In this document: positions 1,581 to 13,552 of the stretch, one piece after another
How the letters are laid out: every line of letters starts with the position of its first letter
How positions within the stretch are numbered: position 1 is the first letter of the stretch
From: Ignavibacteriales bacterium
GTDB taxonomy: Bacteria > Bacteroidota > Ignavibacteria > UBA10030
Direction of reading: 5' to 3'
NCBI GenBank assembly: GCA_016207415.1
Contig: JACQPT010000110.1
Span: 1 to 36,053 of the forward strand
Length of the DNA stretch: 36,053 nucleotides
The notes under the pieces: generated by a model
What the model saw: only the letters and a program-made list of their open reading frames with translations
The model's database searches: none
What the model was told of the DNA's origin: nothing
Position numbers and translations under genes: made by a program

Positions 1581-2822
1581 CTATTGTCCACGAAACGAAA
1601 GCACCGTCAGAAATGATTCCTGACCCGAAAATTTTGCCACGAGATGGATATCACCCTTGCCGACAGCGGCGGTTCCGGAATATTCATTCCCATTCTGTTG
1701 CAGAAACGTCCACTTCTCAGAATGCACAACGGCCACTTTTTCCGCGGCAGTCATTCTGATGCGAAACTCCTGCCCCGGACTCGACTGAAGCACTCCGTCC
1801 ATGGGCGAGATGAGGAAACAACCGTTTTCAAAGAAAGTGCTGTAGGCTCTCGGATAAACCCGTTCACTCGGTTCCTCACAATCCACGCGATAATCCAGCG
1901 CCCACGAATATTGACCGGCGTCGCTTTTGCGCTTGGCAAAGAGACGGAGTAAGTATGTACCTTCCGCCGGGAGCGAAGATCGAATTTCGATTTCATCATC
2001 CGACCTCTGGGTGAAAACACGCGTGTCATCGAATCTTTTCCCGCCCTGTTCGAGGCTGGCGAGCACGAGAGCGTCTGGGGCGGCATCGAGCCTTACTGTT
2101 AATTCTTTCCGCGCTGAAATGATGGCGCTCGTATGACTCTTCAGCTTAAGTCCCGACCAAAAAAAAGGCGGTCGAAGAAAGACAAGGTTCTCGTACTGTT
2201 CCCTTGTGACGGGCTTCTCGAGAAGTTGCCATTTTTCATCGGTCGGGAAGTGGTCGTAAATAAACTCTTCGGGAGGTGTCAGAAAATAGTGTTCCTGGAA
2301 AAATCGAACGTACTGCTTCTGCTCATCGACATAACCTGCGCCCCATGTGCAGTCTAGCAATTGCCATCTACCGTCGATCTTCACTGCATTCCACGCATGA
2401 TTGGGCCGCCCGCCGATGCTCCCGCCGGCCTCAAAACGGTGGCCTTTTGCAAAGCCGGCAATCTTTACGACCTCCAGCCGTGCGGCTTTGGCAATTTGCT
2501 CGAACAAACCCGCATATCCGTCGCAAACAGCTTTTCTTTCTTTCAGAGCGTTGCCGGCGCTTGAGGAGGAAAGGTCTCTGGAAAAAAATGCTTTTGTGTC
2601 ATACGCGATATTCTGTGTGACCCACCGAAAGATCGCCCTGATTCTCTGTTTGTCGTTCTTCGCAGGCTCAACAAGATAGCGGCCGAGTGTTTCATAGGAC
2701 CTTTCCGCGTCCGCGGGAACCTCAAGAGCGTGCCGGTCGATCCGAGAAAAATCCTCCTCCGAATCGATCTGGGCTGAAGCATGGAGGGGAAAAAGGAATA
2801 TCAGAATTGAAAGTTTTTTCAT
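1581..2822 (-). CDS. Secreted transglutaminase-like domain protein
   Basis: MKKLSILIFLFPLHASAQ signal peptide; ERKAVCDGYAGLFEQIAKAA...NHAWNAVKIDGRWQLLDCTWGAGY carries the Cys/His/Asp transglutaminase triad context. The ORF opens at 2852, but the ATG at 2822 is the better start. Confidence 0.82.
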   Translation of the reverse strand: MKKLSILIFLFPLHASAQIDSEEDFSRIDRHALEVPADAERSYETLGRYLVEPAKNDKQRIRAIFRWVTQNIAYDTKAFFSRDLSSSSAGNALKERKAVCDGYAGLFEQIAKAARLEVVKIAGFAKGHRFEAGGSIGGRPNHAWNAVKIDGRWQLLDCTWGAGYVDEQKQYVRFFQEHYFLTPPEEFIYDHFPTDEKWQLLEKPVTREQYENLVFLRPPFFWSGLKLKSHTSAIISARKELTVRLDAAPDALVLASLEQGGKRFDDTRVFTQRSDDEIEIRSSLPAEGTYLLRLFAKRKSDAGQYSWALDYRVDCEEPSERVYPRAYSTFFENGCFLISPMDGVLQSSPGQEFRIRMTAAEKVAVVHSEKWTFLQQNGNEYSGTAAVGKGDIHLVAKFSGQESFLTVLSFRGQ

Positions 2823-2848
2823 TGGCAACCTGTTTATGTCAAGTGATG

Positions 2849-3766
2849 TCAATATCTTTCCAAATCCTTGCCTACCACGACCCGCCCTTGAAATCCGGCA
2901 GCTTTGATCGCAGAGATCATTTCTTCATCCATCCCACCCATGCGTACGACATGGTGCAATACGAGAAGCTTCGGCTGAGCCCGAGAGGCAATTCTGCCCA
3001 GCTCCTTATCCGACGTGTGAAACTCGCGCATGTATTTCGGCCAATCCTCGCCTCCGGGCCGATTCTCCGGCGCAAGACGAGCTTCCGGATATACCTCATG
3101 AACAAGTACATCAGCACGCATGGCCGCTTTTTCAAGCTCAGCGCTCGGTTTTGTGTCGCCGGAGATAACAATCGAGCGCGTCCGAGTGTCATTTCGATAA
3201 CCGAAAGCATGCTTCCAATTACCATGGGGAACAGCGAAAGCGGTTACCTTCACGCCGTCAACTTCATACACAACGCCGGGTTTGATTTCGTGAACGTCCG
3301 CCCTGTAGGCATCAGGAGTTTGGTGCTCGAGACCTTCTACGCGAACCTTAATGTCTTCCGCATACGCGGCATACAGATGCATCGTCATGCTGCTTAGCCC
3401 GGGAGGGCCAAATACGCTAAGAGGTTCTTTTCTCCCCATCACCCATGACGTAAAAAGGAGGTCAGGATACCCGAGCGTGTGGTCGCTGTGCAAATGCGTG
3501 ATAAAAAGCGCTGTTACGCCATTAATTGGGAGTTCTGCAGCGGCGAGTTGCCGCTCAACACCGGGACCGGCGTCGAAAACGAAAACCCTTGCGCCTACGA
3601 CCACAGCAGTTGCCGGCCCCTGTGCTTGGGGGCTGGGACGCGGCATTCCAGTGCCCAGCAGAACCACGATTGTGCTATCCTGCGTCAACTGACAGAAAGA
3701 GCTTATCGTAGCAAAACACACGATGCAAAACAAGAGGATAAACCGAATGGGCTTTAAACGTTCCAT
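2849..3766 (-). CDS. MBL-fold metallohydrolase (RNase Z/arylsulfatase-like), secreted
   Basis: MERLKPIRFILLFCIVCFATISS signal; THLHSDHTLGYPDL motif, VISGDTKPS, LVLHHVV; N-terminal part of the 402-aa ORF is judged spurious. Confidence 0.85.
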   Translation of the reverse strand: MERLKPIRFILLFCIVCFATISSFCQLTQDSTIVVLLGTGMPRPSPQAQGPATAVVVGARVFVFDAGPGVERQLAAAELPINGVTALFITHLHSDHTLGYPDLLFTSWVMGRKEPLSVFGPPGLSSMTMHLYAAYAEDIKVRVEGLEHQTPDAYRADVHEIKPGVVYEVDGVKVTAFAVPHGNWKHAFGYRNDTRTRSIVISGDTKPSAELEKAAMRADVLVHEVYPEARLAPENRPGGEDWPKYMREFHTSDKELGRIASRAQPKLLVLHHVVRMGGMDEEMISAIKAAGFQGRVVVGKDLERY

Positions 3767-4366: not shown

Positions 4367-4807
4367 TCATTTCCCTGGCGAAAGGAAACGGTGGCGGATC
4401 TCAGGCGTGGGCACCATGCACTCGTCGCTTCTGCCGAAAAGAACGTATCGATGGCGTGCGAGAAGCCCGTAGAGCGGCTCACGCAAAAACGCCGGGACGA
4501 TGGCAAACGCGTAAAAGAAGCGAATCAATCCGCGAAGCCTTTTAACAACGTTCAAGACGGCGGTCGTGCCGGTGAAGATTTCTCCTCGCTCCAGAAGCAC
4601 AATCGTTTCCATCTGTCCAACATGCTTTTTGTTCAGCATCCTTTGGGCTTCGTTGCTTTGAAGGGGTGCGAATTGGAAAATTTCGCCGGGATCGCGACGG
4701 ATCACGAATTGCACGAAGCCGTTGCACAAATCGCAAACTCCATCGAAAAAAATAACAGGATGAGAGAGTTCAACATTGACATTAACCTTTGAGAGATCAC
4801 TCCTCAC
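4367..4807 (-). CDS. DCC-family thiol-disulfide oxidoreductase (DUF393)
   Basis: VIFFDGVCDLCNGFVQFVIRRDPGEIFQFAPLQSNEAQ with DxxCxxC motif. Confidence 0.92.
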   Translation of the reverse strand: MRSDLSKVNVNVELSHPVIFFDGVCDLCNGFVQFVIRRDPGEIFQFAPLQSNEAQRMLNKKHVGQMETIVLLERGEIFTGTTAVLNVVKRLRGLIRFFYAFAIVPAFLREPLYGLLARHRYVLFGRSDECMVPTPEIRHRFLSPGK

Positions 4808-4915
4808 AACTAGTCGCCGAAATAGTGAAAATTTCCCTTTGTCGTGTGTACTTTTTACACAGACAGCGTCGAATGGGTCTTCGGAATAGAAAAACGCCAG
4901 ACATGAAATTCCCGC

Positions 4916-4944
4916 GTGACAAATTTAGGGATTTCTTGTATTAT
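4916..4944 (+). promoter_or_regulatory. Candidate sigma70-like promoter of the 5122-7119 module
   Basis: GTGACA-N17-TATTAT. Confidence 0.55.
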
Positions 4945-5042
4945 TCAAAAGAGCCGCTCACTTGTTGATTGGCGTCACCACAGTCCAAGAGCCGTTTCCT
5001 TACCAATGTAAAGATACACATCCGGGAGGCAGCCGAGTTCGT

Positions 5043-5106: not shown

Positions 5107-5121
5107 TAGGAGGGCCTCCTA
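5107..5121 (+). promoter_or_regulatory. Self-complementary Shine-Dalgarno region
   Basis: TAGGAGG-G-CCTCCTA directly before the ATG at 5122. Confidence 0.6.
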
Positions 5122-6333
5122 ATGGTTGTCGATACGAGCAGTATTCTCCAGTTTTTTCTCGCCGTATTGCTGTTTCCAACGTTGTTTCAATCGGAATTCC
5201 TGCAGTTTGCCTGGGGAGCGGACGATGTCGTCTGGGTGATGGTGCTCAAACGTCTTTTTCTCGTCCTGCCAGTCTTTGCGATCATAGCGGGATGTTGGGT
5301 GAGCATCCCGTCGCTGCTGACGGTCCTGTTTCGGCATAAACGGCAGGAGTTCGTCACTGCGCTGTTTATCACGTGGTGGGACCTCGGAAAATCCATTGCC
5401 TCGTATTGGGGCGGGATCTTCAAATTCCTCGTCACCTTACTGGGTTCACTCGTCGCACTCTTGAAAGTGACGGTTTTTGGCCTCTGGTCGATCATGCAGG
5501 AAATTCTCTTCCTGCCGTTTCGATTGATGCGGAGCGCTGGCCAGAGCGTTGTGAGTTCGCCGGTACCGTGGATTGCCGTCTTCCTGACGATATTCTGGTG
5601 TCTCATCGAAGCCATGATCTTCACCTATGTCACCTCGCCTCTGGTCGCGGATACTTTATCGAACATTACAGGAGAGCAATTGTCCATAGGGTTGATGAGG
5701 ATCCCACTTTTTATTTTTCTTTTCTTTGTTGTCCTGGGAAGTTATGCGGTGCTCTCGAATCTGGTCGCTGCGGTGAAAAGCAAGAATGTGTACTCCATCG
5801 TCGGCATTGCTGTTATTGAATTTGTTGTCCTGTTTGTCGAGGTCGTCTTCCTGTACAGGGAATTTGTGGATTCTCTGGTTCCGTGGTTCGCTCAGTACTC
5901 GGAAGGGTTCGAGCTGGGCGTGTTCTGGACTCTCGCCATCGCATGCCTCGCCTGGTTTGGTGTGAGGAGTATTTCGTGGTTTCTGTTTGCGGCCCACGGG
6001 ACGCCGACCATCCTGTCCGTCATTCAGGGCAAGGGTCTGGGGATGGCCGCCGCCTCGGAGCCTGCGAAAACCCGCTTTGTCGCGTTCTCTTCGGAGTTTA
6101 TCAACAAGATCAAGGAAGAGGCCGATTGGATCAAAACAAAAGGGGATGAGCTGCTTGCGGCGTTCATGTTGCCGCCTCTTCAGGTTGTCGCAGCTACGAT
6201 TAATTTTTGCATTCTCCTCGTCAGCGGAAAACACCTTTTTGCGCTGCCGTTTAAGAGCATGGATTCGCTCCTGAGTTCGAGGTCGCTTCTTGAAAATCTT
6301 GCTCCTCACAGAGAAACAGTTTCGCAAGCATGA
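5122..6333 (+). CDS. Polytopic membrane protein of unknown function
   Basis: 403-aa ORF with many hydrophobic segments, strong SD (AGGAGG); no family recognised. Confidence 0.85.
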   Translation: MVVDTSSILQFFLAVLLFPTLFQSEFLQFAWGADDVVWVMVLKRLFLVLPVFAIIAGCWVSIPSLLTVLFRHKRQEFVTALFITWWDLGKSIASYWGGIFKFLVTLLGSLVALLKVTVFGLWSIMQEILFLPFRLMRSAGQSVVSSPVPWIAVFLTIFWCLIEAMIFTYVTSPLVADTLSNITGEQLSIGLMRIPLFIFLFFVVLGSYAVLSNLVAAVKSKNVYSIVGIAVIEFVVLFVEVVFLYREFVDSLVPWFAQYSEGFELGVFWTLAIACLAWFGVRSISWFLFAAHGTPTILSVIQGKGLGMAAASEPAKTRFVAFSSEFINKIKEEADWIKTKGDELLAAFMLPPLQVVAATINFCILLVSGKHLFALPFKSMDSLLSSRSLLENLAPHRETVSQA

Positions 6334-6348
6334 CGGGGGGAGGCCATT

Positions 6349-7119
6349 ATGCAAAATCTATCGAAGATCTTTTTAGGAATCCTGACCGCAGCTGTTTTCA
6401 TTGCAGGATGTGGGTTGGGGGATGGGAGTGCCGAGAAACCGCGCCTTTCCCTGTTTGTGGCATTCGACATCAGCGGGTCGTTCATGAAAAGCGGCCATTA
6501 CGAAAACTCGATCGATTTCCTGGCGCGTTATTTGTACGCACATCTTAACGGGCTGGGCGGTCTGGAAGTACCGAATGCCTTGTTCGTAAGCTCAATCGGC
6601 GGCGCATCGGCAAACGAGCCAAAAACTTTTTATCCGCGGCAGCTCTTTGAAAACAAAAGCGTCGATGAAATCGCCCAGAAACTTCGTGAGGTCTTTCCCA
6701 AAGGGACGGAAAATCCGTACACGGACTACAATGCCTTCTTTGAACAGGTCGCCATGACCGTGAGGAACAGAAAACTCGTCCTCAGACCGGTGTCGATCGT
6801 GATGGTGAGCGATGGAATTCCCGACGTCAAAAAAGAAGGGCGGACGGATTTTCGGAGTATCGCATTGAAACCTCTGGAGGGTCTGGCGCGGAATATCACG
6901 CTGCGGTTGCTTTACACGAACGCAGAAGTCGGCAAAAACTGGCAAACCAAAGTCCCGAGAAGCAGGGTGAAAGTGTGGACTCAGGATGCGGAAGTCATGA
7001 CAACCTGGAGTGACCCCAAGATCTACTCGGCGGAAAAGCCGGTGGAGGAACAAGAACGATTCTTTTCATGGGTAAAGGACAACGTGGATTTCGGCGTGAG
7101 TGCCCGACGCGTCGACTGA
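6349..7119 (+). CDS. Lipoprotein with vWA-like fold
   Basis: Lipobox FIAGC; LFVAFDISGSFMKSG (DxSxS MIDAS) and VSIVMVSDGIPD. Confidence 0.75.
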   Translation: MQNLSKIFLGILTAAVFIAGCGLGDGSAEKPRLSLFVAFDISGSFMKSGHYENSIDFLARYLYAHLNGLGGLEVPNALFVSSIGGASANEPKTFYPRQLFENKSVDEIAQKLREVFPKGTENPYTDYNAFFEQVAMTVRNRKLVLRPVSIVMVSDGIPDVKKEGRTDFRSIALKPLEGLARNITLRLLYTNAEVGKNWQTKVPRSRVKVWTQDAEVMTTWSDPKIYSAEKPVEEQERFFSWVKDNVDFGVSARRVD

Positions 7120-7131
7120 AGGAACTGAAAA

Positions 7132-7998
7132 TTATCCATGAGAGTCGGAAAGAAAGCTCAATACCTTCGAGTTGTATTCCTCCGGGTTGTCCCTGTGCAT
7201 GCCATGTGAGGCTCCCGTAATAAAGACCCGCTGAGCGTTGGGCAATATTTTCAAGAGCTTGTCCGAGATTGCATGAAAAAATCTTGGGCTCTTCTCGCCG
7301 TACACGAAGAGAATCGGAATCCTGCAAGTCCTCGCCTCCTCGATGGGAAACGGTGGAAATCCCGGTCCGAGGAGTTCAGCCTTCAGGGCCTTTGCATTGT
7401 CCACGAACACAGTGCGGGCAGGGGGAGGAAGTCGGTCGAAACTGCCTTCTCCGAGCACGCCGTTGATAAAGAGTTTGAGTCCTCCCTCCAAATCGTCACG
7501 TCGTAACGCTTCCTGCGCTGGTTTTATTGCTGTCATACCGAATCTCATGAACCGCAGGGCTGTGATGGGACTTCTGAGGACCAGGGACACCATATGGAGT
7601 GGATTGTCCGGATTCTCTGCCAACAGTGGAAGCACAGGCGGCTCACCAAGAACGAGAATCCGAATCAAATCGGGATTTCGGATTCCTGTGATTAACGACG
7701 TGTAAGCTCCATAGGAAGAGCCGACAAGACGAACACCCCGAAGCCCCACTTTCCTGATGAATTCGACCAGGTCGCGGGAATGGGTGTCAACAGTGTAGTC
7801 TGAACCGTTGCCTGCCGAGGAGTTTGGAAAGTGGTATCGCCTGCTGTAGGCGAAGACGCGATACTTCTGTGAGAAAAAATCAACTTGCGCCTTCCACGTC
7901 CGGTAATCGCTCACACTCCCGTGAACAAAGATAACAGGCTCGCCGTTTCCCGCTTCGAGATATTCGAGTTTGGTTCCGTTTATTTCGGCGGCGGGCAT
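7132..7998 (-). CDS. Alpha/beta hydrolase
   Basis: PVIFVHGSVSDYRTW, LVGSSYGAYTSL nucleophile elbow, ASHGMHRDNPE. Confidence 0.92.
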   Translation of the reverse strand: MPAAEINGTKLEYLEAGNGEPVIFVHGSVSDYRTWKAQVDFFSQKYRVFAYSRRYHFPNSSAGNGSDYTVDTHSRDLVEFIRKVGLRGVRLVGSSYGAYTSLITGIRNPDLIRILVLGEPPVLPLLAENPDNPLHMVSLVLRSPITALRFMRFGMTAIKPAQEALRRDDLEGGLKLFINGVLGEGSFDRLPPPARTVFVDNAKALKAELLGPGFPPFPIEEARTCRIPILFVYGEKSPRFFHAISDKLLKILPNAQRVFITGASHGMHRDNPEEYNSKVLSFLSDSHG

Positions 7999-8113: not shown

Positions 8114-8926
8114 CTATTTTCTTTCCTCAAACGAGCCGGTCAATCCTTTCATCGCTCTCCATCTCCCCGGATCGCTAATCGGCGCAGGTTCGTAGGTTTC
8201 CCGTTTCCTCAGATTCAGTATTTCGGCTGCCCTGTCTTGCGAGTTTGGGTGCGTTATGAGGAGCTCGTATTGCCTGGGGATGCTGCCTTTTTCCCGCGAC
8301 AAACGAAAGAGGAAATTCGCAAGGTGCTCCGGGTCGATATGCGCTTTGGCCAGACACCGAACAGCCCACAGGTCCGCCTCGTTTTCCTGTTCTCTGTCGA
8401 ATGCAGTCGAGGTGAGCAACTTCATTACCTGACGTCCAATCTCGCCGCTTGCATCACCGCCGGCAATCGTCGTCAGCATCGAAAGCCCCACTTCCTTCAA
8501 CAGTTTTTTTTTCACGTGCTCGTGTTCCATGTGCGCAATCTCGTGAGCCAGGACCCCAGCCAGTTCCTCAGGGGAGTTACAATAACTGATGAGCCCCGAA
8601 TATAAAACAAGATTCCTGCCTGGAAGTGTGAAGGCATTGATGTCTCGTTCAAGAAGGATATAGAGGAAAATGGAAGATTCATCGATACCGTTCGCCTCGC
8701 AAAGCCTTTGCTTAATGTCTTCGACAAAAGCCTGAACGCTGTCCGAGCCCAGTTCGGGTTTTCCCCTTTGCATCTCCTTCAGAACCCAGGCGGAAAGCTT
8801 TTCCTCGGTGTCTTTTGTGAGTTGTTCGATTTCGAAGATGTTAACGAAATCGATCCGGCTCAACAGAAACCACACGCCGAAAAACAACAACGCAAGCACT
8901 ATGAAATGCAACAACACCTTTGCCAT
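8114..8926 (-). CDS. M48-family metalloprotease (membrane anchored)
   Basis: LAHEIAHMEHEHV (HExxH), later EADLWAV; N-terminal TM. Confidence 0.92.
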   Translation of the reverse strand: MAKVLLHFIVLALLFFGVWFLLSRIDFVNIFEIEQLTKDTEEKLSAWVLKEMQRGKPELGSDSVQAFVEDIKQRLCEANGIDESSIFLYILLERDINAFTLPGRNLVLYSGLISYCNSPEELAGVLAHEIAHMEHEHVKKKLLKEVGLSMLTTIAGGDASGEIGRQVMKLLTSTAFDREQENEADLWAVRCLAKAHIDPEHLANFLFRLSREKGSIPRQYELLITHPNSQDRAAEILNLRKRETYEPAPISDPGRWRAMKGLTGSFEERK

Positions 8927-8927
8927 G

Positions 8928-9359
8928 TTATCCCTTTACCAAAACCTCCGTTAATGGGCCAAAAAACCACCAGGAAACGTGCTTTCCTTTCCGCGTCCGA
9001 ACGGCTGCGTAAATGGCAGCGATAAATTCCAGGATATTGAACAGCAAAAGAGTCATGATGTAGGCGATGTATGTGTTGGTGACTTCGCGTTCTCCAAAGA
9101 CAACACCTGCCGTCCAATACACTCCGGCTGCATTGGCGAAAAATGTCAAAACCTGCGCAACGAGGTTCTGCGTGCAATGCCAACGCACGAAATGACCGGC
9201 TTTCCTGTTGGCGACGTAGAAAATGACCGAAGCGATGAGGTTGACAATCGGCAGCGGCAGTCCAAACATGATCACCACGACAGCCATAAGGTAGCTGTTC
9301 GAGGCTTTCTCCGATTCGTATTCGTTCGGGTCGTTGAGAAGAACTTGGGGCGCGGACAT
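8928..9359 (-). CDS. DUF4870-like small membrane protein
   Basis: NSYLMAVVVIMFGLPLPIVNLIASVIFYVANRKAGHFVRWHCTQNLVAQVL; likely start MSAPQVLL at 9359. Confidence 0.75.
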   Translation of the reverse strand: MSAPQVLLNDPNEYESEKASNSYLMAVVVIMFGLPLPIVNLIASVIFYVANRKAGHFVRWHCTQNLVAQVLTFFANAAGVYWTAGVVFGEREVTNTYIAYIMTLLLFNILEFIAAIYAAVRTRKGKHVSWWFFGPLTEVLVKG

Positions 9360-9360
9360 G

Positions 9361-9768
9361 TTACATGGCTTTTGAAATGTTCCAAATCCAGTTCGCCACA
9401 ATAATCAAGCCCGCAAGGAGAACTACCCATCGATGCTGGGTCACGTAGCGCTCGGCCACGACATAACGATTGTAGAACGAGTCTCTTTTGCGGAGAATAT
9501 CGGCGAGAATCCACAACGGGACGATCACCAGGGCGAATGCGGTCAAGAGGCCGAACGGATTGATGAGCAGAGATTCCTGAACGTCCCCGACGGCCAATGC
9601 GGCAATCGAACGCGTCGTTCCACAGGAAGGACAAGGGATTTCTGTAACAGTCTTAAACAAACAGGCCGTCGGATGATGTCCGCCTGATCCAGGAGCGGTC
9701 CAAAAAACCCAGACGTATCCCGCCAGTGACAGCACAAGAAAGAATATGTAAAGGTTTCTCCTGGTCAA
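9361..9768 (-). CDS. DUF2752 domain membrane protein
   Basis: TEIPCPSCGTTRSIAALAVGDVQESLLINPFGLL is the hallmark PCPxCGxTR motif. Confidence 0.9.
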   Translation of the reverse strand: MTRRNLYIFFLVLSLAGYVWVFWTAPGSGGHHPTACLFKTVTEIPCPSCGTTRSIAALAVGDVQESLLINPFGLLTAFALVIVPLWILADILRKRDSFYNRYVVAERYVTQHRWVVLLAGLIIVANWIWNISKAM

Positions 9769-9813
9769 CGTTGAGATTGCGTGATTTCCACCTTGAGAAC
9801 TTTGGTCATCGCA

Positions 9814-10152
9814 TCAATACATCGCCTGCTGAAAGTTCTGCATGTTGATTTCCCTGGTCCGGCCCATGATGAGGAACCAGTCCACAATTGTCCAGATGCC
9901 GAAACCGCCACAGGTGAGCAGTTTAGCGACTCCAAGGCCGACCTCGCCGAGCACAAACCGGTCAATGCCAAAATGACCGCCGATGAGTGAAACGATGAGC
10001 ATAATGATTGGGTCTCTGAGGCTGACCGACTGCAGTTGGAGAAGCTTGGCGTCATCAAGCTTTGTCAATTTTTCTTTGATTGACGCAAGTTGATATCCTT
10101 CAAAGTATTTTCCCGACGTCATCAAAAACAGATCGACCTTTTGTTGGTCCAT
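9814..10152 (-). CDS. TM2 domain-containing protein
   Basis: IIMLIVSLIGGHFGIDRFVLGEVGLGVAKLLTCGGFGIWTIVDWFLIMGRTR. Confidence 0.93.
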   Translation of the reverse strand: MDQQKVDLFLMTSGKYFEGYQLASIKEKLTKLDDAKLLQLQSVSLRDPIIMLIVSLIGGHFGIDRFVLGEVGLGVAKLLTCGGFGIWTIVDWFLIMGRTREINMQNFQQAMY

Positions 10153-10201
10153 AAAGCCTCCAGAGTTGAGGTGGGAGAATGTGGTGTGTTTGTATGGTCG
10201 T

Positions 10202-10927
10202 TTATCTCACAATGTTCGCGAGCGTGTCGTGATGTTCGCGGATGAGCGTTCGCAAATACGGTCCGATGTGCCGGGCACTTTCGAAGCCGGCCTCTCTCGC
10301 GGCGGCGTCCTGGTCTTTTTCCGCAATGTTCACGCTTTCGGCGTAATGCTTCAGGTCTCGGAATGCGCCGATCGTGAACAGGTCCCAGGCTGCGCCTTGA
10401 TCGCGAACGAAGATAAAGTTCTCCGGCCGCTTGATTGCGCGCTGGTAGGCGTTTTCCATTTCGCGCTCCTTGTAAAGTGCTTCCCGTTTTGTTGCAAGAG
10501 CCACGAACATTTCAACGTGAAAGAATGAATTTGCTCCAAAAGCTGTCCGGACCTCTTCGAGCGGTGGTCCGTAAACAAAGAGGTCTTCCCGCCACGAGAT
10601 GTTGTCACGAATTCTTTTCTCGACTTCACTCGATTCAGTTTTCTTTCTTTGCACAATCCTTGCCGGCTTGTAGTATTCGGCATAGGATTCGATGGGGAGG
10701 AGGATGAGGAGATCCCACTTGTCGCCCTGGGTATGCCGGATCATGAAGGGCATGGGTTCACCGTTTGCCGAATCCAAAGCAAACGATGATTTGTAAAAGT
10801 CGATGAGCTCAAGGAGTTTTCCCGGGGCCGCTTGAATGAGTGTCGTTTTGTAGAGATATGTTGGTTGAGCGGGTGAAAGAGTACACGTCAAGCAACAGAC
10901 AACGAGAAGAACGTACGAGGCTTTCAT
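10202..10927 (-). CDS. Secreted hypothetical protein
   Basis: Signal peptide MKASYVLLVVCCLTCTLSPAQ; strong promoter upstream; family not recognised. Confidence 0.75.
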   Translation of the reverse strand: MKASYVLLVVCCLTCTLSPAQPTYLYKTTLIQAAPGKLLELIDFYKSSFALDSANGEPMPFMIRHTQGDKWDLLILLPIESYAEYYKPARIVQRKKTESSEVEKRIRDNISWREDLFVYGPPLEEVRTAFGANSFFHVEMFVALATKREALYKEREMENAYQRAIKRPENFIFVRDQGAAWDLFTIGAFRDLKHYAESVNIAEKDQDAAAREAGFESARHIGPYLRTLIREHHDTLANIVR

Positions 10928-10953
10928 GAATTGTCGTTCAAACGAGTCCGCCC

Positions 10954-10982
10954 ATAATACAAAAGGTCGGTACGTTTGTCAA
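10954..10982 (-). promoter_or_regulatory. Consensus sigma70-type promoter
   Basis: Minus strand TTGACA-N17-TATTAT, upstream of the ATG at 10927. Confidence 0.75.
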
Positions 10983-10983
10983 G

Positions 10984-11742
10984 CTACCAGCGGAAAGTCT
11001 CACCGTTCTTGAGAACATGAAGCTTTTCGGCGAGGCCCAGGCGGTTGACTGCCTGATGGAGAAGAACCGGAGGCTCGTTCAATGGTTCATCGCTAATCTT
11101 AAAAGTGCCCCAGTGGATGGGCACCAGACTCTTCGCTTTCAGATCAACGAAAGCCTGAACAGCCGAAGCAGGGTTTAAATGAATATCTTTGAACCACTTG
11201 TGCGGCTTATAGGCGCCGACGGGAAGGAGGGCGACGTCTATCGAAAACCGTTCGGCTATTTGCCGGAAATGATCGTCATATCCTGTATCCCCGGCGAAAT
11301 AAACGGTTGATGCGTTGGTCTGAACAACGTAACCGCCTGCAAGAGTCTTTTTTCTGTCCCAGGGTAATCGCTTGTTAAAATGTTTTGCTGGCACGCACGT
11401 CACCCGCAAATTCCGAATCTCCACACTCTGCCAGAAGTCCAATTCAACCACATCTTTGAAGCCCGTGCGTGTGCCGTATTTTGAAAGGCCGCGTGGGAAA
11501 AAAATCATGGATTGATTTCGTCGTCGCAACCTGCGCAGCGTTCTCAAATTCAAATGGTCGTAATCTGCGTGTGAGACGAGGATGACGTCGATGTGCGGCA
11601 ATTCCCCGAAGGCTACGCCTGGCATGCGCAAACGAGGGATGTAGTAGCCGAGCGTCCAGCTGTAGACGGGGTCGGTTAGAACATTGACGCCACCGAGCTG
11701 AATGAGAACAGTGGCGTGATTAATGAACGTGAGGGAGTTCAA
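10984..11742 (-). CDS. MBL-fold hydrolase (UlaG/NAPE-PLD-like)
   Basis: TFINHATVLIQLGGVNVLTDPVYS, SHADYDHLN, YFAGDTGYDDHF, PIHWGTF. Confidence 0.9.
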   Translation of the reverse strand: MNSLTFINHATVLIQLGGVNVLTDPVYSWTLGYYIPRLRMPGVAFGELPHIDVILVSHADYDHLNLRTLRRLRRRNQSMIFFPRGLSKYGTRTGFKDVVELDFWQSVEIRNLRVTCVPAKHFNKRLPWDRKKTLAGGYVVQTNASTVYFAGDTGYDDHFRQIAERFSIDVALLPVGAYKPHKWFKDIHLNPASAVQAFVDLKAKSLVPIHWGTFKISDEPLNEPPVLLHQAVNRLGLAEKLHVLKNGETFRW

Positions 11743-11785
11743 GAAAAAACGGGATCTGTCCGAATGACCCGAGGATTAGCCCCTG

Positions 11786-12643
11786 TCAAACTTTAAGGTA
11801 GGATTCCTTCAACTCGGAAGAGAGAACCTCATTCATGCTGCCGGCCCGATAACCTTGCAAATCGAGAGTCACATACACGAAGCCCAGTTTTTTGAAATGT
11901 TGCACGATTTGATCCCGCAAGTCGTCTTCAAAAATTCTGTGGAACTCCTGCTTTCCAATTTCAAGCCGTGCAGTCTTCTCATCATGGTGGCGGACACGGA
12001 AAAAGCGAAACCCAAGGTCGCGCATGTATGTCTCTGCTTCATCGACTTTCATGAGGTTCTCCTTTGTTATGCCAAAACCGTAGGGAAATCGGGACGACAA
12101 ACACGCAAACGACGGCTTATCCCAGGTAGGAATGCCAAGATTTTTTGCCAGAGCTCGGACATCATCTTTTGAAAAACTAGCTTCCAGAAGTGGAGACCTG
12201 ACGTTTTGCTCTGCCTTTGCCCGCATGCCCGGCCTGAAATCCCCCATATCGTCCGTTATCGTCCCGTCGGCGATCCATCGGATGCCTTCTTTGTCCGCTA
12301 TGGCATTGAGTTTTCCGAAAAGCTCTGTCTTGCAAAAGTAGCAACGGTCGGGCGGGTTTTCCCTGAATTTCAGGTCGTCTGTTTCCTCGGTAGCGACAAC
12401 CTTGAAACGTGAGCCAAATTGCTCCGCCAAAGCAATGGCTTCCTCAAATTCTCTCGTCGGATAAGTTTCCGAACGCCCAATAACCGCAAGAGCCTTGTTA
12501 CCCAAGACCTCCGTTGCGACCCGGATCAGCAACGTGCTGTCAATTCCCCCGGAAAAACCAATCGCTACACTTTCCATTTCGTGGAGTATCGTTTTAAGAA
12601 GGCCGTATTTTCGTTGAACTTCAAGATTCATTGTCGAAGTCAT
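11786..12643 (-). CDS. larE: ATP-dependent sacrificial sulfur transferase LarE
   Basis: AIGFSGGIDSTLLI PP-loop, PPDRCYFCKTELF, KPSFACLSSRFPYG, VRHHDEKTARLEI. Confidence 0.92.
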   Translation of the reverse strand: MTSTMNLEVQRKYGLLKTILHEMESVAIGFSGGIDSTLLIRVATEVLGNKALAVIGRSETYPTREFEEAIALAEQFGSRFKVVATEETDDLKFRENPPDRCYFCKTELFGKLNAIADKEGIRWIADGTITDDMGDFRPGMRAKAEQNVRSPLLEASFSKDDVRALAKNLGIPTWDKPSFACLSSRFPYGFGITKENLMKVDEAETYMRDLGFRFFRVRHHDEKTARLEIGKQEFHRIFEDDLRDQIVQHFKKLGFVYVTLDLQGYRAGSMNEVLSSELKESYLKV

Positions 12644-12648
12644 TAAAC

Positions 12649-12688
12649 CATCACTCCATTACTCCAATACTTCACTATTCCACATCAC
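12649..12688. repeat. Degenerate 8-bp tandem repeat, 5 units
   Basis: CATCACTC CATTACTC CAATACTT CACTATTC CACATCAC. Confidence 0.65.
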
Positions 12689-12691
12689 GCT

Positions 12692-13552
12692 TTAACTCAC
12701 CAATTTCTCCTCCAATGCTTTCCTCACTTCCTCGACAGGCATTCTCTCGCCCGTCCAAATCTCAAACGCTTTAGCACCCTGATGAATAAACATTTCTAGT
12801 CCCCTGATGATTTTTGCTCTGGCTGCCTTGGCTCGTTTTAACAATGTAGTTTCAAGAGGCCTGTAAATCAAGTCGAAAACGATTTGGTGGCTAACGAACT
12901 GGAACGTATCAGAAAGCGGTGATGCCTCGCTCTTTGGAAACATGCCGACAGGGGTTGCATTCACGATCAGCGAGTACTGTTTCGATGAAGATGTCGCCAA
13001 GGAATAATCAATCACCGTTGCATTCTCAATTTTCAAAAAGGCGGCCAATGAGTTGGCTTTTCCTTGCGAACGGGCAGCGATGACTATTTCCGGCGGCTTA
13101 AAATATTTCTTGAGAGCATACAGGACTGCCCGAGACGCGCCTCCGGACCCGAGCACTAGGACTTTTTTTTCTTCAATCGCTTGCCTGTGCGGCTCGAGGC
13201 TCTTCAATGCTCCGTATACATCGGTATTGTAGCCAATCAGTCTGCCCTTCTGAATAGTAACTGTATTCACGGCCCCGACGCTTTTCGATTCGAAGTCTAG
13301 TTCGTCAAGAAGAGGAATAATCGTTTCTTTGTGCGGTAGTGTGACGTTGAAGCCGGCAAACCCTAGTTTCTTCATATCATGGACGGCATCCTTGAGTCCA
13401 GAAGGTTCGATGTCGTAGGATGCGTAAAGAAAGTTCAGTCCGAGTGCTTGAAACGCAGTGTTGTGCATGACCGGAGAAAAAGAATGTTGAATCGGGTGCC
13501 CGATAACCGCAAGGAATCGGTAATCTGGTGAAAGCTGGGAAGGAATGGTCAC
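12692..13552 (-). CDS. aroE: Shikimate dehydrogenase
   Basis: AVIGHPIQHSFSPVMHN, GFNVTLPHKETI, LVLGSGGASRAVLYAL. Confidence 0.96.
   Translation of the reverse strand: MTIPSQLSPDYRFLAVIGHPIQHSFSPVMHNTAFQALGLNFLYASYDIEPSGLKDAVHDMKKLGFAGFNVTLPHKETIIPLLDELDFESKSVGAVNTVTIQKGRLIGYNTDVYGALKSLEPHRQAIEEKKVLVLGSGGASRAVLYALKKYFKPPEIVIAARSQGKANSLAAFLKIENATVIDYSLATSSSKQYSLIVNATPVGMFPKSEASPLSDTFQFVSHQIVFDLIYRPLETTLLKRAKAARAKIIRGLEMFIHQGAKAFEIWTGERMPVEEVRKALEEKLVS

Follow-up and report, generated by a model that had tools for sequence, protein, structure and literature searches.

An obligate pair of genes for a polytopic membrane protein and a predicted vWA lipoprotein, sparsely distributed among bacterial phyla

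The window analysed here is the whole stretch of 36,053 nucleotides that makes up contig 49 of the 2.79-Mb draft genome of an Ignavibacteriales bacterium. It contains two co-oriented genes separated by a gap of only 15 bp (Table 1). The first of these (gene 1) encodes a membrane protein with multiple predicted helices, and the second (gene 2) encodes a lipoprotein with a vWA domain. The earlier note had described this layout from the sequence, including the divergent and convergent neighbours of the pair and the segments DISGS and VSDGIPD of the second product, and all of these elements were found where it had placed them. A purine-rich site also precedes the start of gene 1 in most relatives.

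Table 1. Positions of the two genes, their sequence features and their neighbours, counted from the first letter of the window
Feature	Position	Strand	Remarks
DCC1-like thiol-disulfide oxidoreductase gene	4367-4807	-	Pfam PF04134; upstream of gene 1, divergent
Conserved upstream non-coding region	4914..5013	+	79% identity to a same-genus genome over about 102 bp
Sigma-70-like match	4916-4944		Within the conserved upstream region; chance level about 1.8 per region
Predicted ribosome-binding site of gene 1	5108..5113	+	AGGAGG; basis: sequence
Gene 1, polytopic inner-membrane protein	5122..6333	+	403 aa; start ATG; no family recognised; 8-9 predicted membrane helices
E163, in predicted membrane helix 4 of gene 1	5608..5610	+	Invariant in 38/38 members
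Predicted membrane helix 6 of gene 1, residues 233-250	5818..5871	+	E233, E240, E247, R246 and D250 invariant in 38/38 members
R282, in predicted membrane helix 7 of gene 1	5965..5967	+	Invariant in 38/38 members
Predicted ribosome-binding site of gene 2	6335..6343	+	GGGGGGAGG; within the intergenic gap; basis: sequence
Gene 2, lipoprotein with vWA domain	6349..7119	+	256 aa; start ATG
Signal peptide and lipobox of gene 2	6349..6411	+	FIAG-C21; lipobox pattern in most members
MIDAS motif DISGS, residues 40-44	6466..6480	+	D40, S42, G43 and S44 identical in 38/38 members
T125-D126, MIDAS second-loop Thr	6721..6726	+	38/38 members
D155-G156, MIDAS third-loop Asp	6811..6816	+	Inside VSDGIPD; 38/38 members
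Alpha/beta-hydrolase gene	7132-7998	-	Convergent; 12 bp past the gene 2 stop

Both ORFs are real genes under purifying selection, since their protein sequences are conserved while synonymous sites are near saturation. The two proteins share 90% and 86% identity with same-genus copies. Relative to the same-genus locus L005, non-synonymous divergence of the pair amounted to 0.06-0.11, and the omega of the vWA gene was 0.06 (NG86). The same method gave a pN of 0.056 against a pS of 0.75 for the membrane gene when compared to its same-genus copy.

The pair had also been credited with a structured leader of its own, a claim that our results did not support. The 166 nt upstream of gene 1 folded no better than shuffled versions (z = 0.13; 108 of 200 shuffles were equally good) and no Rfam family matched the leader, leading us to reject a structured RNA leader or riboswitch. 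Meanwhile, the non-coding region upstream of the pair stays about 79% identical although synonymous sites in the genes are nearly saturated, indicating a conserved regulatory region. Conservation of the primary sequence within the genus suggests that this region probably contains elements of a promoter or operator and not a structured RNA. A perfect palindrome (TGTGTA-CTTTT-TACACA, positions 4845-4861) lies between the DCC1-like gene and the pair and is exactly retained in a same-genus genome; it is probably linked to the divergent DCC1-like gene. Elsewhere in the genome, the pattern TGTGTA-N5-TACACA occurs exactly only once, within a GAF/PP2C-like ORF; with one mismatch allowed, there are seven matches versus five for the reversed control. 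In view of the single further match and the small excess over the control, a regulon defined by this palindrome is doubtful.

The association between the two genes was nearly perfect. For every one of 44 distinct full-length vWA homologues, gene 1 immediately precedes the vWA gene in the same orientation; this count leaves out one duplicated fragment of 97 aa and one fragment at a contig end. When 396 genomes of the phylum were searched with separate profiles of each protein, the same five genomes were matched by both and no others, and matches were either very strong or absent. A contig scan of the genome collection returned 27 loci, with gene 1 beside gene 2 in each, and copy number, examined in 11 genomes, was one throughout. 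The pairwise distances of the two proteins are correlated (r = 0.92 overall, and 0.82 and 0.96 within the two clades), although joint inheritance by itself could produce such a correlation. Genes flanking the pair are shared sporadically, mainly among close relatives, and none of the loci examined revealed a conserved neighbour, which suggests that the partner needed by each gene is the adjacent one.

An empty site within one Balneolaceae-type genus provided a natural comparison. Two genomes of this genus (G176 and G943, loci L078 and L114) carry the pair and a third (G242, locus L112) lacks it. Locus L078 shares both flanks with L112, 4.0 kb at 85% identity on the left and 5.3 kb at 82% on the right. 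Between them, L112 holds 208 bp where L078 has about 2.3 kb including the pair. Thus, the proposal that the genes form a self-contained unit is upheld by the invariable pairing and by flanks that occur with or without exactly these two genes, and an obligate two-gene module that is gained or lost as a unit is well supported. In a separate locus (L081, positions 8879-12935, genome G405), the last 299 bp of the vWA gene are duplicated at 92% identity about 3.5 kb downstream. The duplication encloses two genes, a decarboxylase of the ornithine/DAP/arginine PLP family and another that appears PLP-like by eye and has no Pfam match, and the end of the vWA gene may have served there as an insertion point.

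The pair was detected in nine named phyla and candidate divisions, namely Ignavibacteriota, Zixibacteria, Calditrichota, KSB1, FCPU426, Eisenbacteria, Balneolota (Aliifodinibius), Nitrospirota, and Aminicenantes, at identities of 32-90%. Its distribution is sparse, as it occurs in 5 of the 100 nearest relatives and in 5 of 396 genomes of the phylum. Frequencies in other groups were 9/119, 4/148, 2/149, 9/40, and 6/92, and presence varies even inside one genus. The unrooted tree of the joined proteins comprises two deep clades. Within it, the copies of Zixibacteria, Ignavibacteria, Eisenbacteria, and Balneola each form one clade with strong support, while those of Calditrichota are not resolved. 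Hence, the tree can be accounted for without wholesale transfer between phyla. The part of the tree that contains Nitrospirota and Acidobacteriota may include transfer. One copy (L073, G881), found in the phylum sample centred on the Aminicenantes genome, groups with the Nitrospirota copies at weak support (85/43), and is a possible case of transfer between phyla. This pattern is compatible with an ancient, vertically inherited pair that was often lost, with some transfer, or with a combination of the two, gain and loss being indistinguishable in an unrooted tree.

Such patchy presence, together with the clean gain or loss of two genes and their stand-alone character, would suit an envelope defence or stress module, in which a membrane effector is restrained by a periplasmic metal-dependent sensor of phage, toxin, or envelope damage. 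We consider this function rather improbable. Neither protein matched PADLOC, the only candidate being one member with an E-value of 0.062 to the CARF_TM model, which is at chance level, and no defence genes were found as conserved neighbours. The copies of each phylum fall mostly into one clade, suggesting a turnover slower than that of typical defence genes. No copy of the pair was found in plasmid, phage, and IMG/VR collections, the last of these scanned by pattern for the most conserved stretches only. Comparison at the empty site also revealed neither terminal repeats around the pair nor a target-site duplication. We therefore rejected the interpretation of the pair as cargo of a mobile element, given the lack of terminal repeats and of phage, plasmid, or viral copies in the collections searched.

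The nature of gene 2 became apparent from its predicted structure. No significant match was found to Pfam, NCBIfam, PADLOC, or PDB sequences, whereas the AlphaFold2 model (pLDDT 86.3, pTM 0.82) was matched by Foldseek to vWA domains as the top PDB entries (best E 7e-7, probability 1.00), albeit with moderate TM-scores of 0.4-0.55. The best matches were to the vWA domains of RGLG1, the inter-alpha-inhibitor heavy chain, complement factor B, TRAP, and integrin. A total of 125 matches had E<=0.001, and NorQD (9qhe_G, E 4e-5) was among the hits. The five MIDAS positions (D40, S42, S44, T125, and D155) are invariant among the 38 sampled members. Based on fold and motif, the assignment of gene 2 to a predicted vWA fold with a complete putative MIDAS metal site is well supported, in agreement with the MIDAS motif read earlier from the letters. 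Gene 2 thus resembles the Pfam families VWA and VWA_2 (PF00092 and PF13519) in predicted fold and MIDAS but differs in that no vWA member reached a Pfam cut-off, the best being an E-value of 0.062 to VWA_2 in 1 of 28 members. Likewise, a search of the bacterium's own genome with PF00092 matched four other vWA genes and not gene 2. Adding this high-confidence fold to the universal pairing, the five genomes matched by both profiles, the empty site, and the purifying selection, we ruled out that the two ORFs are chance neighbours or an annotation artefact; nothing was found in favour of this explanation, and its probability is negligible.

About 12 residues separate the lipid-bearing cysteine of gene 2 from the first vWA strand (residues 34-39 in the AlphaFold2 model). 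With so short a linker, the vWA domain is expected to lie near the surface of the membrane. A few copies, such as those at L024, L025, and L036, have a signal-like N-terminus and no clear lipobox cysteine, and lipid anchoring is thus, as judged from these sequences, not universal in the family. The lipoprotein signal would be compatible with an adhesin, that is, a surface vWA lipoprotein which binds its ligand through the MIDAS while gene 1 serves its export. Bacterial MIDAS adhesins do exist, such as Bd0875 of Bdellovibrio (PMC11003981), and gene 2 resembles proteins of this type in being an envelope protein with a MIDAS. Nevertheless, the linker is very short and the polytopic partner is obligate and equally conserved, making adhesion less likely. 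To our knowledge, no obligate polytopic partner is known for adhesins of the Bd0875 type. The vWA sequence is conserved throughout and not in its core alone (52% mean column identity), unlike surface adhesins. Hence, we regard this function as improbable.

Gene 1 was confirmed as a polytopic protein outside the recognised families. No significant match was found to Pfam, NCBIfam, PADLOC, or PDB sequences. In the searches with the pair, weak Pfam matches to DUF6557, DUF2304, DUF748, and IMPa_N_2 were taken as chance, as they involved few members and fell below the cut-off wherever one was shown. The AlphaFold2 model is weak (pLDDT 69, pTM 0.40), and a PDB fold search with this poor model returned no significant match and no known channel or transporter fold. 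Ion-driven units of the MotA/ExbB/TolQ type were not recovered either, by Pfam, NCBIfam, or the fold search with the same poor model. The earlier note had named two outcomes that would speak against its proposal, a pair not conserved in other genomes or a strong match to a characterised system, and the opposite was observed on both counts. In the Eisenbacteria locus L025 (positions 2602-3613), the gene 1 copy switches reading frame around residues 262-293; a sequencing error or a recent frameshift is the probable cause.

The charges of gene 1 provided insights into its topology and possible activity. Averaged over 38 members, loops L2 (66-78), L4 (127-150), and L6 (212-226) are positive, while L5 (171-194) and L7 (249-268) are acidic, and these signs are kept in most or nearly all members. 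From this pattern we infer that YREFVD-x-x-x-PW marks the periplasmic end of helix 6, so that D250 and P254-W255 would lie on the outer side. Residues 77-95 probably form a further membrane-spanning segment. Across all 38 members, down to 32% identity, nine charges (R71, R74, E163, E233, E240, R246, E247, D250, and R282) are invariant, and D87 is kept in 37 members. Seven of the nine belong to helices 4, 6, and 7 or are found where these helices end. E233, E240, and E247 are spaced seven residues apart and thus lie on the same face of helix 6. Such invariant charges in the membrane helices of the partner point to an ion-conducting or ion-binding membrane complex. Enzymes, scaffolds, and salt-bridge networks that transport nothing can likewise contain invariant acids within the membrane.

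Based on these findings, we postulate that the products of the two genes form one inner-membrane complex. The vWA protein would be exported and, in most members, lipid-anchored, and held near the membrane by its very short linker. We infer that it binds gene 1 in the same membrane, because the pair is inseparable, no other partner is apparent, the MIDAS is conserved, and the tether is short. MIDAS sites commonly take an acidic residue of their target as the last metal ligand. In the complex, an acid of the polytopic partner would complete the coordination of the divalent metal at the MIDAS, and the invariant R246-E247-x-x-D250 cluster at the predicted periplasmic end of helix 6 is the best candidate docking site. 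The stripe of buried invariant acids in gene 1 (E163, E233, E240, E247, and D250), paired with R246 and R282, leads us to propose cation binding or passage. The polytopic protein would most likely conduct, transport, or be driven by a cation, and we hypothesize that gene 1 moves ions; the vWA protein would be the metal-dependent assembly, gating, or sensing subunit. We hold this combined reading, of an inner-membrane complex with MIDAS docking on a partner acid and a partner most likely moving or driven by cations, tentatively and at a little under an even chance.

This arrangement is reminiscent of the animal alpha2delta/CaV system, in which a membrane-anchored extracellular MIDAS vWA protein docks on an acid of its polytopic partner, as gene 2 is proposed to do (PMC6231325). 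For alpha2delta-1, docking of the MIDAS on D78/D122 of CaV has been shown or proposed (PMC6231325). Alpha2delta differs from gene 2 in being far larger, in its Cache domains, and in its GPI anchor, and no sequence relation was found; the weak model of gene 1 matched no channel fold. The analogy with CaV is one of working and not of membership. A bolder version of the proposal, which we consider doubtful, is that gene 1 represents a new bacterial class of channels or transporters. It would then be the first member of a new fold family with an acidic stripe inside the membrane, and its gating or assembly would depend on a lipid-anchored vWA subunit with a MIDAS. The pair would be a convergent counterpart of alpha2delta-CaV, passed on and lost as a self-sufficient unit in many phyla.

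Among bacteria, NorD and NorQ offer another parallel. NorD is cytoplasmic, and BatA and BatB are anchored by membrane helices, whereas gene 2 is exported and mostly lipid-anchored. NorD/NorQ resemble the pair in that a bacterial MIDAS vWA protein acts on a membrane protein (PMC9976466), and docking of the NorD MIDAS on D220/E222 of NorB, at helix VII, has been shown or proposed (PMC9976466). By analogy, the pair could be an assembly or metallation factor that matures a third protein, of the membrane or the periplasm, or inserts its cofactor, with the MIDAS binding the client and gene 1 acting as carrier or scaffold; nitric oxide reductase is served in this way by NorQD. Besides the precedent of NorD, itself a MIDAS vWA protein that works in this manner (PMC9976466), the conserved Trp and Pro patches would agree with this function, and the sparse distribution fits a niche enzyme. 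Yet vWA proteins of this kind (NorD, BatA/B, and ViaA) are accompanied by a MoxR AAA+ ATPase, and neither such an ATPase nor a client gene is conserved beside the pair in any lineage examined. Moreover, presence flickers inside a genus with exactly two genes gained or lost. We therefore judge an assembly role unlikely.

A MIDAS-bearing vWA domain is a known kind of domain, while gene 1 and its pairing with gene 2 are absent from the libraries searched. A word search of the open-access literature, which by its nature cannot prove absence, found no description of the pair. What emerges is a two-protein membrane system that is strongly conserved and whose genes occur together almost without exception. 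As one genus naturally includes genomes with and without the pair, its function can be tested by deleting or moving just two genes. At the least, these findings add two new protein families, found in a number of little-known phyla. Should the docking model hold, the pair would offer a compact bacterial example of how a membrane protein is assembled or gated through a MIDAS, a process best known from the large calcium channels of animals.
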